Below, piece by piece: positions 43,971 through 59,808 of a stretch of 64,000 nucleotides of DNA. Position numbers and translations under genes: made by a program. The DNA lies in NCBI GenBank assembly GCA_963678705.1, contig OY783208.1:20052207-20116206 (forward strand). The letters are read 5' to 3'. The stretch's first letter is position 1; the number at the start of each line of letters is the position of its first letter. This DNA is from Panorpa germanica. Taxonomy: Eukaryota; Arthropoda; Insecta; Mecoptera; Panorpidae. The notes under the pieces are model-generated. The model worked only from the letters and a program-made list of their open reading frames with translations. It was not told the DNA's origin and did not search any database.

Positions 43971-43976
43971 GGAACA
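43971..43976 (+). other. 6-bp target duplication, left
   Basis: GGAACA, repeated at 59803-59808. Joining the flanks with one copy restores uninterrupted BEL pol sequence, so this is a true insertion-site duplication. Six bp is the size known for Polinton/Maverick elements. Confidence 0.85.
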
Positions 43977-44042
43977 GTAGATGAGGAGAGCGGGTTCTAG
44001 GACAGTTTGGAGTGAGGATGCATTTAGGTCACGATATGCAGA

Positions 44043-44116
44043 GGGGGCGTGGCTAGACTTGGAAGAATGTAAAAGGGGGTAAGGGTGGGGTAAGGAGTGA
44101 GGTGGCGTGGCTAGAC
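44043..44116 (+). other. Subterminal repeated motif in the left arm
   Basis: The 16-bp motif GGxGGCGTGGCTAGAC occurs at 44043-44058 and 44101-44116 inside a G-rich strand near the element end, and is mirrored in the right arm (about 59662-59735). It is a possible binding site for a terminal protein or transposase; function not shown. Confidence 0.45.
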
Positions 44117-45128
44117 AATGGGGGGTAATAGTTGGGATAATATGAAAGAGTGAGATAGCGATATTAATTATTACGTGTGAGATACCGATATTAATTCTTA
44201 TGTTTGATTTGTTATTGGTTATAAGATTATGACAGTGTTAAATTATTTATAACAGTGTATTTATAGCGCATTCCTTCGAAATTTGTAAACAGCACATGTT
44301 CTCATGAGAAACTTTAGACACACGCGCATTAGTTCGAATGTAACTTGAAGCACACGTGTTAGCCGGCGTCAGCACATGTTCGTGTTGCGTGTTGAATACA
44401 AGCGAATATTTTCCAAACGTAGACAAATTTTTTTGTTATACATTTAATGTTTTAGTTAAATGTAGGGCCGGATTGGGTATTGTTGTATTAGATTATTTAT
44501 TTAAGTATACTAAAAGTTATAATATACGTACATTATATCATTGATGATTGTCAAAGCATACAGTTATTTTTTTATGTGTTGTAATAATCATAAAGTCTTA
44601 TAAGTCAGACAATGGTGTTGTTTTACATATATGAGGTTATAACACCACAGTAACTGTTAAAATAGTAGGAGGATATTTTATTATACAAATTTATTAGGTA
44701 GCGGTTTGATCCATATGTATGAGGCTATATAGGTTGTGGATAATAGTAGAATCACAATTAGCTAAACCAAAAGCTCTAACTTAAGTTGAAACAAACTTTT
44801 TAAAATAAAACTGCTCGAAGGGTCGGGGCCCCCGAGAATTTTATTTATTTTGAATGCGCGGGGATTATAGAATTAAGAATTGATAGTCTGATGGTAAATA
44901 TATTATAGTATTAAATAAGTAAAGTGCTACCCTGTTAAATTTTTATTAAGAATTGATAGTCTGATGATAAATATATTATAGTATTAAATAAGTAAAGTGC
45001 TACCCTGTTAAATTTTTATATTATAATTTATATATAAGTCTAAGAATATGATTGTATTACATTAAGTATTGTGCTGTTTGTTTATTAAATAACTTGTGTT
45101 TTTAAATAATTTAGTGGCTATATAGTGC

Positions 45129-45166
<38 letters not shown>

Positions 45167-45414
45167 TCAATAATTTCAGTTTGGAAGTGGATAATTATGC
45201 GGTAAGTAAATTTTGTATAAGATTTTGTATGTTTACAATAAATTTAATAGTAGTTTTCAAATATTACAGGTGTCTATAGCAGTTTCAACCTAATCTTGAG
45301 TTTTTACCGTTTGAACCCTTTTAGACTTTCATACTTATGAGCAAACAGTTAGGTAAGTTAATTTTTAATACTTTTTAGATAATTTTAATTTAGTTATAAT
45401 AATAACAGTTTTAA

Positions 45415-46772
45415 ATGTCAACAGAATATTGCTGTGCATATCTGTATTCCGATGATACATTGGATTATACGTGCCCAACAATAGTTCATCCTGGAGTACA
45501 AGTAAGTTCTACTTCTTTGTGCGATTGATTGTAACAACTACCACCTTGCAGAAAGAATCTTGGGACAATAATTTTTATGAGTGTTTTATTAAAAATAATA
45601 TAAATAACCATATTGATTTAAATAATAATTTTAGCCATATATCATCAAAAATAAACTTGGAACTGTTGGAACAAGAAATAAAAATTTTGTGCATAGACTT
45701 TTTTAAAATTAAATTATACAATAACGCTCAAGAATATATATATATATATATAACTTATCAAAAAATGGAATCGATTTTTGATTTGGAAGATTTATTATTT
45801 GTAAAAAATATTCATATTGATGATAGCGAGCTATTAAATTTAGATATTGACCCTTCGCTTTTTGATGAAGATTTTTCATTACCTGAGTTATTAAATTCAG
45901 ATATTCATATTGATGATAGCGAGCTATTAAATTTAGATATTGACCCTTTGCTTTTTGATGAAGATTTTTCATTACCTGAATTATTAAATTCAGATATTCA
46001 TATTGATGATAGCGAGCTATTAAATTTAGATATTGACCCTTCGCTTTTTGATGAAGATTTTTCATTACCTGAGTTATTTAATTCAGATATTGAGATACAG
46101 AATATGTCTGAAATTACAACTTCTTTAAACAATGAGGATGATTTTAATACAAATTTGACTCCTTCTAAATTGACTGCAGTTCCATTTTTATTTAATGAAG
46201 CACCTATGTTATTAAAAAAAGATATGTATTTTATCAAAATAGGTTTAAATTGTATTAATCAGTTTGAACCAGAAATTTACATATATAATAAATATAATTT
46301 TGGACTAAAGTTAAGTTTATGTGATTATTTTGAGCTTATAGAGCATATTAAGCAATTGATTAATATGTTTAATGGTCAATTGGTAATACCATCGAATATA
46401 TTAATAGGAACAAACTATAAAATAAATATCTTTAATCCAAATAGTATTGCAATTATTTCAAATTGTAAAACTCAAATATCAGTATTTTTAAATATTTTTG
46501 ATTTAATACATTTCTTATCCTTAAATGATTATATTAATGCTATTGGTAAACATTTTTCTGAAATGCAAATTGATTTGTTTAATACATATAATATATTTTT
46601 AAATAGTATTGTAATGTATTTAAAAAATAAAAATATTGGTGTTTCGAAAAAGATTTTGACTCAATTTTTATTTTACGAATGTGAAGAGTTAAATTCTAAT
46701 GATATATTATTAAAAATGATAATAATTTCAAACATGTCGTATATATTAGAAGAAATATCAAAACTATTGTAA
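45415..46772 (+). CDS. Spliced acidic repeat protein, left arm
   Basis: Exon 1 (45415-45501) starts MSTEYCCAYLYSDD and ends at GTAAGT. A 50-bp intron ends TTGCAG at 45551, and exon 2 (45552-46772) continues in frame, about 435 aa in all. Residues from about 105 contain three tandem 31-residue acidic repeats (units built on DSELLNLDIDPSLFDEDFS), followed by a hydrophobic/asparagine-rich region with no known domain. Further splice-like signals upstream (45210, 45270, 45351) suggest 5' UTR introns. The frame crosses a TA dinucleotide run at about 45735-45752 that is 18 bp here but 34 bp in the right arm. Function unknown; the acidic repeats could suit an activation or protein-binding role. Confidence 0.6.
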
Positions 46773-56907: not shown

Positions 56908-56959
56908 AAGAATTATATACATTTTAAATTTATATATATATATATTATAAATTAAGTAA

Positions 56960-57978
56960 TTACAATAGTTTTGATATTTCTTCTAATATATACGACATGT
57001 TTGAAATTATTATCATTTTTAATAATATATCATTAGAATTTAACTCTTCACATTCGTAAAATAAAAATTGAGTCAAAATCTTTTTCGAAACACCAATATT
57101 TTTATTTTTTAAATACATTACAATACTATTTAAAAATATATTATATGTATTAAACAAATCAATTTGCATTTCAGAAAAATGTTTACCAATAGCATTAATA
57201 TAATCATTTAAGGATAAGAAATGTATTAAATCAAAAATATTTAAAAATACTGATATTTGAGTTTTACAATTTGAAATAATTGCAATACTATTTGGATTAA
57301 AGATATTTATTTTATAGTTTGTTCCTATTAATATATTCGATGGTATTACCAATTGACCATTAAACATATTAATCAATTGCTTAATATGCTCTATAAGCTC
57401 AAAATAATCACATAAACTTAACTTTAGTCCAAAATTATATTTATTATATATGTAAATTTCTGGTTCAAACTGATTAATACAATTTAAACCTATTTTGATA
57501 AAATACATATCTTTTTTTAATAACATAGGTGCTTCATTAAATAAAAATGGAACTGCAGTCAATTTAGAAGGAGTCAAATTTGTATTAAAATCATCCTCAT
57601 TGTTTAAAGAAGTTGTAATTTCAGACATATTCTGTATCTCAATATCTGAATTAAATAACTCAGGTAATGAAAAATCTTCATCAAAAAGCGAAGGGTCAAT
57701 ATCTAAATTTAATAGCTCGCTATCATCAATATGAATATCTGAATTTAATAATTCAGGTAATGAAAAATCTTCATCAAAAAGCAAAGGGTCAATATCTAAA
57801 TTTAATAGCTCGCTATCATCAATATGAATATCTGAATTTAATAACTCAGGTAATGAAAAATCTTCATCAAAAAGCGAAGGGTCAATATCTAAATTTAATA
57901 GCTCGCTATCATCAATATGAATATTTTTTACAAATAATAAATCTTCCAAATCAAAAATCGATTCCATTTTTTGATAAG

Positions 57979-58016
<38 letters not shown>

Positions 58017-58333
58017 TTGAGCGTTATTGTATAATTTAATTTTAAAAAAGTCTATGCACAAAATTTTTATTTCTTGTTCCAACAGTTCCAAGTTTATTTT
58101 TGATGATATATGGCTAAAATTATTATTTAAATCAATATGGTTATTTATATTATTTTTAATAAAACACTCATAAAAATTATTGTCCCAAGATTCTTTCTGC
58201 AAGGTGGTAGTTGTTACAATCAATCGCACAAAGAAGTAGAACTTACTTGTACTCCAGGATGAACTATTGTTGGACACGTATAATCCAATGTATCATCGGA
58301 ATACAGATATGCACAGCAATATTCTGTTGACAT
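56960..58333 (-). pseudogene. Spliced acidic repeat protein gene, right arm, frame broken by TA run
   Basis: Exon 1 is 58333-58247 and the 50-bp intron 58246-58197 has intact GT-AG signals, as in the left arm. The TA run at 57980-58013 is 16 bp longer, shifting frame, so the N-terminal part ends soon after the run (ORF to 57951). The repeat-containing part could start at its own Met at 57967 (335 aa, MESIFDLEDLL). It may therefore yield a shorter protein or none. Confidence 0.6.
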
Positions 58334-59802
58334 TTAAAACTGTTATTATTATAACTAAATTAAAATTATCTAAAAAGTATTAAAAATTAACTTACCTAAC
58401 TGTTTGCTCATAAGTATGAAAGTCTAAAAGGGTTCAAACGGTAAAAACTCAAGATTAGGTTGAAACTGCTATAGACACCTGTAATATTTAAAAACTACTA
58501 TTAAATTTATTGTAAACATACAAAATCTTATACAAAATTTACTTACCGCATAATTATCCACTTCCAAACTGAAATTATTGATAAAATTTTTTTTTTTTTT
58601 TTTTTTTTTTAAAATAGCACTATATAGCCACTAAATTATTTAAAAACACAAGTTATTTAATAAACAAACTGCACAATACTTAATGTAACACAAATCATAT
58701 TCTTAGACTTATATATAAATTATAATATAAAAATTTAACAGGGTAGCACTTTACTTATTTAATACTATAATATATTTATCATCAGACTATCAATTCTTAA
58801 TAAAAATTTAACAGGGTAGCACTTTACTTATTTAATACTATAATATATTTACCATCAGACTATCAATTCTTAATTCTATGATCCCCGCGCATTCAAAATA
58901 AATAAAATTCTCGGGAGCCCCGACCCTTCGAGCAGTTTTATTTTAAAAAGTTTGTTTCAACTTAAGTTAGAGCTTTTGGTTTAGCTAATTGTGATTCTAC
59001 TATTATCCACAACCTATATAGCCTCATACATATGGATCAAACCGCTACCTAATAAATTTGTATAATAAAATATCCTCCTAATATTTTAACAGTTACTGTG
59101 GTGTTATAACCTCATATATGTAAAACAACACCATTGTCTGACTTATAAGACTTTATGATTATTACAACACATAAAAAAATAACTGTATGCTTTGACAATC
59201 ATCAATGATATAATGTACGTATATTATAACTTTTAGTATACTTAAATAAATAATCTAATACAACAATACCCAATCCGGCCCTACATTTAACTAAAACATT
59301 AAATGTATAACAAAAAAATTTGTCTACGTTTGGAAAATATTCGCTTGTATTCAACACGTTCCCATAAGAATAATTTATATACAAAGTTCTCATGAGAACA
59401 TGTGCTGACGCCGGCTAACACGTGTGCTTCAAGTTACATTCGAACTAATGCGCGTGTGTCTAAAGTTTCTCATGAGAACATGTGCTGTTTACAAATTTCG
59501 AAGGAATGCGCTATAAATACACTGTTATAAATAATTTAACACTGTCATAATCTTATAACCAATAACAAATCAAACATAAGAATTAATATCGGTATCTCAC
59601 ACGTAATAATTAATATCGCTATCTCACTCTTTCATATTATCCCAACTATTACCCCCCATTGTCTAGCCACGCCACCTCACTCCTTACCCCACCCTTACCC
59701 CCTTTTACATTCTTCCAAGTCTAGCCACGCCCCCTCTGCATATCGTGACCTAAATGCATCCTCACTCCAAACTGTCCTAGAACCCGCTCTCCTCATCTAT
59801 TT

Positions 59803-59808
59803 GGAACA
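59803..59808 (+). other. 6-bp target duplication, right
   Basis: GGAACA, matching 43971-43976. Confidence 0.85.

Follow-up and report, generated by a model that had tools for sequence, protein, structure and literature searches.

A mirror-symmetric Polinton-type element and its palindromic relatives in the genome of Panorpa germanica

We examined a stretch of 64,000 nucleotides from the mecopteran Panorpa germanica (assembly GCA_963678705.1, contig OY783208.1, positions 20,052,207 to 20,116,206 of the forward strand; this whole stretch is hereafter called the window), which contains a 15.8-kb near-perfect palindrome. The palindrome is probably a Polinton-type element in which two mirror copies of one arm surround an array of short repeats and which was integrated as a unit, and we infer that the second arm was made by fold-back copying. 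Kinship with Polinton/Maverick elements, which had been suggested by the first-pass annotation (made from the letters of the window alone), is borne out by the shared ends, the 6-bp target duplication, and the polymerase lineage.

The inverted repeat consists of arms at 43978-51830 and 51902-59799 with 71 nt between them. A whole-arm alignment gives 21 substitutions in 7852 aligned bases (0.27%) and four indel events, and a match of this length cannot be due to chance. Two inverted arms of about 7.9 kb had been described as forming nearly the whole insertion, which is correct, the arms being near-identical and not identical. Comparison with 20 other copies sets the element span at 43976-59801 (AGTAG...CTACT), the right terminus of the window copy being CTATT, one base off the expected CTACT. 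The 6-bp duplication that had been noticed also exists, but its letters are TGGAAC, one base to the left of the GGAACA originally claimed. The parts of the palindrome are as follows:

43970-43975, no strand: left target duplication TGGAAC, placed by comparison with other copies
43976-51830, plus strand: left arm, starting AGTAGATGAG
51721-52011, no strand: central array of 22-bp repeats (AACTTGAACGTACTGGGAACGT and its complement)
51831-51901, no strand: non-mirrored centre, 71 nt
51902-59801, minus strand: right arm, mirror of the left, ending CTCATCTATT where CTACT is expected
59802-59807, no strand: right target duplication TGGAAC, placed by comparison with other copies

As single-stranded DNA, positions 51640-52092 fold into one long hairpin (z -43.9), as expected for a palindrome. 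No element terminus lies at the centre, as the outer 1.0 kb and the inner 1.15 kb of the window arm show chance-level matches only. Therefore, half an element has been mirrored, and the dimer of whole elements envisaged by the first-pass annotation is ruled out. The substitutions between the window arms are unevenly distributed: considering the 15 clean ones (the other six of the 21 lie in a complex indel), they are concentrated towards the two ends of the arm (outer 1.5 kb and inner 0.7 kb), and the intervening 5.4 kb holds one of 15 versus 10.4 expected (P = 7.5e-7). This is the pattern expected if conversion or consensus polishing had evened the middle of the arms.

Ordinary Polintons are present in the same genome. 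With a 404-bp probe from the end, 57 matches were obtained in the 464-Mb genome (best 40 of 895 candidates scored), many of them in inverted pairs 4-47 kb apart. Four ordinary elements were read (C6:24.08M, C135, C16, and C237), and they have inverted ends of approximately 450 bp and a unique interior, so the contrast previously drawn between the palindrome and normal Polintons holds. They are also the complete relatives, with integrase and capsid genes, for which a search had been suggested: all four carry an rve integrase (E 3e-16), a polymerase, an A32-like ATPase, a phospholipase-A2-like frame, a double-jelly-roll capsid protein (E 1e-109), and a further frame that, by its position, we take to be the minor capsid protein. 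Their polymerase frames fall short of the Pfam polymerase model; among the best 120 listed relatives of this polymerase, which are 54-62% identical and often have DNA_pol_B_2, the named ones are mostly from ants, wasps, bees, and beetles. No cysteine protease match was found among the part of the ordinary-copy frames that was scanned. In all four elements, the 22-bp array lies mid-element in a single orientation, and an exact 6-bp duplication is present in 5/5 non-palindromic copies (copy cE reads TATATG/TATATG). One ordinary Polinton also contains a retrotransposon-like gag plus aspartyl-protease frame (L018:3369-4757), with no match in the other three.

The genome-wide search for further palindromic copies, also proposed earlier, revealed at least 41 distinct mirrored loci including the window (21 + 5 + 12 + 3), which is a minimum, since scoring was confined to the best 40 candidates per probe. 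The polymerase probe (window 50771-51343; best 40 of 523 candidates) gave 16 inverted pairs, all facing each other, and eight unpaired matches; when about 2 kb beside each of the latter was read, a partner was found for five, so that 37 of the 40 matches lie within 21 palindromes (window included) and three outside. Five more palindromes with arms of at least 5.0 kb came from the end probe, namely F (C1:0.35M), G (C6:19.26M), H (C8:0.45M), K (C8:3.54M), and N (C1:7.46M). The integrase probe (best 40 of 409 candidates) yielded 12 inverted pairs by hand count, all facing away from each other and comprising 24 of the 40 copies; these loci rest on the pair pattern, except for four whose centres were read and a further four with both ends read. 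Under the same pairing rule, the two control probes gave three pairs for the capsid gene (best 40 of 340 candidates) and one pair for the start of the ordinary polymerase (best 40 of 419 candidates), with the reading for hidden partners applied to the polymerase probe and not to the controls. Polymerase-class centres were self-complementary essentially end to end in 15/15 cases read (91-100%), one of which (L051, C4:2733061-2734556) is 1496 bp of perfect self-complementarity without mismatch or spacer around an (AT)n dyad, and the integrase-class centres were self-complementary in 4/4 cases. At C3:21.68M, both arms have an open integrase frame, the two copies being identical to each other and like the ordinary integrase in 318/321 residues; the capsid probe had no match in the arm and centre read there. 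The three capsid pairs are C23, C152, and C157, where the capsid gene is joined to a polymerase whose DNA matches the palindrome K polymerase at 93-99% and the ordinary polymerase at 64-71%.

Judged by sequence, the palindromes form a polymerase lineage of their own. Their polymerase pieces are 87-100% alike among the window, F, G, H, K, and N (one stretch of G, 68-69%), and their amino-acid identity with the ordinary polymerase is 33-65% by stretch and 42% over the longest aligned stretch. Thus, the family B polymerase pieces recognized in the window are indeed there, but they belong to a separate lineage, now broken in this copy, and are not pieces of the ordinary polymerase. We also considered selection on this polymerase; dN/dS (the ratio of non-synonymous to synonymous substitution rates) was 0.50 when pooled and 0.67 by distinct variants, and with few counts this is too weak to claim. 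The non-mirrored centre of palindrome K contains a 458-codon frame (L023:1275-2648) with a weak bZIP_Maf match (E 0.013, below cut-off) and no match in the other pieces searched.

With regard to integration, both ends were found in 16 of the 22 palindromes examined for them, and 13 of these 16 have an exact 6-bp duplication directly outside AGT..ACT: the window copy (W), G, H, K, N, C9:3.45M, C6:6.51M, C3:21.68M, C1:22.19M, C17:8.04M (the second of two overlapping AGTAG being used at its right end), C6:15.67M, C4:4.47M, and C5:8.30M. The first-pass annotation had regarded the insertion as integrated in one piece and had named a lack of duplications at other copies as the result that would speak against it; instead, duplications lie outside the palindrome ends at most of these 16 loci. 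The palindrome likely entered the chromosome as one molecule via a Polinton integrase.

Comparison among the palindromes bears on how the second arm arises. The array is present in both orientations in 19/19 polymerase-class centres, in 4/4 integrase-class centres, and in F, G, H, and K. Five arm layouts (a hand count; F = H) were seen among the six palindromes compared in full, each layout being the same in both arms. The centre of C9:3.45M is 98.8% like that of the window, with a different outer arm, again in both arms, and such an end module can be up to 99% like that of an ordinary element; therefore, an ordinary-like end module has been copied to the other arm. In both F and K, one arm breaks off within the polymerase and continues as array sequence, the breakpoint not being the same in the two. 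The arms differ by 0.24-0.88% in the six palindromes (12-58 substitutions per copy), and the 58 differences of G (C6:19.26M) are evenly spread over 6575 bases. In the 397 bases beside the centre, compared across 15 palindromes, nine sites are asymmetric, with the odd base found in any other copy in 0/9; at seven further sites, a variant shared by both arms was seen, in one to six copies each. Four further segments compared in six palindromes contain 50 asymmetric sites versus 30 mirrored ones. Some asymmetric sites of N cluster within a few bases and may be alignment noise. Altogether, 57 of the 59 asymmetric sites are private to one copy. Independent inheritance of the two arms should give many shared asymmetries. 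Considering that asymmetries are nearly all private and that inherited variants are mirrored, new copies are apparently born with two matching arms.

The following route fits these features best. Protein-primed, strand-displacing replication would yield a displaced single strand ending in or just past the array; this strand would fold back on the complementary repeats of the array, its own 3' end would serve as primer, and the arm would be copied to the outer end. In the next round, the hairpin would become a linear palindrome, each end of which would have a replication origin and an integrase site, and the single arm would be the unit that changes and is inherited. Fold-back at the array with self-primed copying would explain the absence of a central terminus, the two-way arrays, the matching layouts, the truncated arms, and the private asymmetries. 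Protein priming is assumed for this element by analogy with its family. As the window copy has no integrase match and a broken polymerase, it would use proteins from elsewhere, either from other palindromes or from ordinary Polintons. The suggestion that the element is nonautonomous and borrows proteins in trans is accordingly plausible for the window copy, F, G, H, K, and N, in none of which an integrase was found, but it does not extend to the whole class; our own statement that palindromes lack integrase was true of these first six and was overturned by the 12 integrase pairs.

Several observations weigh against fold-back copying and subsequent integration as a unit. Three of the 16 palindromes with both ends have no matching duplication, namely F, C1:0.93M (L084/L085), and C1:8.79M (L088/L089), the latter two being integrase-class copies with clean ends. 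F (L029, L030, L012, and L013; C1:348900-364900) is flanked by inverted arrays of a 281-bp satellite, so that mirror symmetry extends past the element. At six palindromes (C1:18.95M, C4:2.73M, C5:8.62M, C23, C6:20.81M, and C8:4.44M), the search for the ends did not locate both within the stretch read. The array repeat is missing from both halves of palindrome N, and in the part of C157 that was read it occurs in a single orientation. Two outer-end sites share the odd base with another copy (2/50 in the four segments). An arm segment has its own partner arm as nearest match in only 28 of 40 cases in the six palindromes (a hand count with ties scored as misses and only hits covering 70% of the query kept), and beside the centre in 4/30 with 21 ties; the segments are too alike for a strong nearest-match measure, and this measure does not help the fold-back reading. 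The non-mirrored centres vary from 71 bp to 6.7 kb. Five copies have one palindromic core at the dyad in common, and therefore part of the set descends from one palindrome. Finally, C23, C152, and C157 are on short contigs, and no replication intermediate or extrachromosomal form was seen.

An alternative that we consider unlikely, while deserving of attention, is that two sister molecules of a replicating element recombine or join at opposed arrays and that the resulting palindromic molecule then integrates. The two-way array at most centres is in agreement with such joining, identical sisters would also give copies that are born symmetric, and the palindrome at C6:16.88M (L045, 16.87-16.89M), whose outer arms hold the ordinary polymerase start, has another side of the element mirrored, so that more than one side occurs in mirrored form, as reciprocal products would. 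However, the array of ordinary elements is one-way, which means that the molecules must meet head to head; moreover, joining of unrelated molecules is disfavoured by the finding that only 2/59 asymmetric variants are shared, and sisters alone would fit.

It is a good deal harder to believe that the palindrome had a single origin, the lineage moving as a palindrome ever since with its arms kept alike by gene conversion after insertion. The related centre sequences and the common core at the dyad of five copies are what this would predict, as is the almost difference-free inner part of the window arms. Nevertheless, asymmetries present at transposition should reach daughter copies, yet 57/59 are private; whole end modules would have to be swapped in both arms (the window versus C9:3.45M); and the evenly spread 58 differences of G indicate that conversion is not general.

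Protein-primed replication is expected to proceed without a lagging strand, which counts against a route of the type known as origin-dependent inverted-repeat amplification (ODIRA). The yeast model (PMC4689423) needs short interrupted inverted repeats and an inverted dimer that integrates, which speaks for this route, but integration in that model is by homologous recombination, whereas 6-bp duplications are found here at transposon ends. We regard this route as very improbable. As for an assembly or sequencing artefact, such as a read through a hairpin adapter or a chimeric contig, palindromes are a known artefact type and both the very uniform inner window arms and the three short contigs would suit it, but it is an unlikely source, hardly to be credited, given the different flanks with exact duplications at 13/16 palindromes, the 12-58 substitutions between the arms of each of six copies, and the even spread of differences in G, which is not expected of a chimeric read.

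Beyond the fold-back reading of single copies, a wider proposal, on which we are almost evenly divided, is that a palindromic Polinton lineage exists in which one arm is heritable and the other is rebuilt by fold-back at a hairpin array in each replication cycle, with some members carrying an integrase, some a capsid gene, and some being pure parasites like the window copy. If true, these transposons would exist as giant self-complementary DNA, and 24 of the 40 best-matching integrase copies of the genome would reside in them.

The content of a window arm is given below in the coordinates of the left arm:

43976-44381, plus strand: outer approximately 400 bp, homologous to the terminal inverted repeats of ordinary Polintons
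44404-44942, plus strand: sub-terminal segment
45456-46772, plus strand: open reading frame 1 (ORF1), 438 codons, with a 93-bp tandem repeat; mirrored at 56960-58051 (363 codons)
46987-47456, plus strand: extra polymerase N-terminal piece, 99.4% to 50133-50603; mirrored at 56276-56745
47445-48372, plus strand: two small frames (147 and 142 codons); mirrored at 55360-56287
49812-51245, plus strand: type-B DNA polymerase remnant, in pieces, its family assigned via a related piece; mirrored at about 52487-53920
51341-51442, plus strand: scrap of a packaging ATPase beside the central array, 34 codons, 94% amino-acid identity; mirrored at about 52290-52391

The polymerase remnant is without an internal stretch, and both this gap and the N-terminal duplication are present in both window arms. 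No DNA_pol_B_2 match was obtained in Pfam for the window pieces; such a match (E 1.7e-13) is found in the polymerase piece of palindrome K (L023:3389-4345). A search of IMG/VR with the polymerase piece found no relative, and ORF1 has no database relative at E <= 0.001 among 7999 candidates scored. The two small frames are 97-99% like DNA adjoining one end in three ordinary Polintons. Integrase, capsid, minor-capsid-like, and phospholipase-like proteins have no match in the window copy (tblastn, E 1e-5).

The sub-terminal segment is present in both arms of 6/6 palindromes compared (in G, 387 of 539 bp) and was not seen in C9:3.45M and C6:6.51M. In 4/4 ordinary elements, it is full length beside one end only, and two of them have short remnants (35-42 bp) at the opposite end. 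In the ordinary copy cJ, the segment sits at the other end. We had supposed that all palindromes share one kind of end, and this was dropped in view of the ordinary polymerase start mirrored at C6:16.88M, the position of the segment in cJ, and the two palindromes without it. In cJ (L021, C16), a second partial end is found inward of an outer end that bears the sub-terminal segment, an arrangement that resembles end exchange between elements.

The palindrome interrupts another mobile element, described by the following line:

41280-60450, plus strand: host BEL element interrupted by the palindrome, with 307-bp long terminal repeats (LTRs) at 41280-41586 and 60144-60450

The two LTR copies have four differences, and the BEL frame picks up again to the right of the palindrome for 31 codons, in accordance with the first-pass annotation. 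By eye, the host BEL has TG..CA ends and a 5-bp duplication, TTAGT. The repeat around it has a BEL-free copy at about 21540-21620, and the order of nesting is repeat, then BEL, then palindrome. Elsewhere in the window, there are another BEL-type element (5680-10469; a 1075-codon frame with DUF1759, reverse transcriptase, and Pao peptidase, and an integrase/DUF5641 frame), a Copia-type polyprotein open for 1172 codons on the minus strand (22583-26098), and two C2H2 zinc-finger frames with tandem finger repeats (11596-12582 and 15808-16551), the surrounding stretches being 82% alike.

To our knowledge, Polintons are thought to replicate like adenoviruses, and little direct evidence on their replication cycle exists. 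With palindromic copies and their central arrays so abundant, this genome is a fossil record of Polinton replication, in which fold-back and template switching become testable by comparison of arms and centres, as the analysis of arm symmetry illustrates. Multi-kilobase perfect palindromes are generally regarded as unstable in chromosomes, and a genome that keeps dozens of them is a natural test of this rule. Some copies have an integrase, some a capsid gene, and some neither, and together they resemble a layered parasite system within one virus-like family. No paper on a palindromic Polinton was among those listed by the literature searches, which extended to neither repeat databases nor journals under subscription.

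The terminal inverted repeats of Polinton/Maverick elements (polintoviruses, adintovirus-like) have AG..CT ends, and the window palindrome resembles these elements in its AGT..ACT ends, its 6-bp duplication, and a size within 15-20 kb; ordinary copies with the same ends carry integrase, A32-like ATPase, double-jelly-roll capsid protein, and a polymerase with DNA_pol_B_2 relatives. It differs from them in that its halves are mirrored save for 71 nt and small differences, with no unique interior, and in that it has no integrase or capsid match and only a 34-codon scrap of the ATPase. Defective genomes of adenoviruses with inverted end duplications are protein-primed linear DNA in which both termini can be copies of one end; they are known as products of culture, unlike the many fixed genomic copies seen here. 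In Foldback (FB)/Galileo elements, inverted repeats also make up most of the element, but the transposase group and the duplication length are others, whereas the ends and 6-bp duplication of the window palindrome match those of the local Polintons. In a study whose subject is the capsid genes of Polintons (PMC4028283), ordinary members are described as 15-20 kb long with a protein-primed polymerase, an rve integrase, an ATPase, and a protease. Teratorn, a piggyBac-herpesvirus fusion, differs from the palindrome in having a unique region, a length of 41-182 kb, and piggyBac ends. The inverted dimers of yeast ODIRA (PMC4689423) are similar in that they form at short inverted repeats and are then integrated, and they differ in arising from an error of chromosomal replication, in using homologous recombination, and in having no transposon ends.

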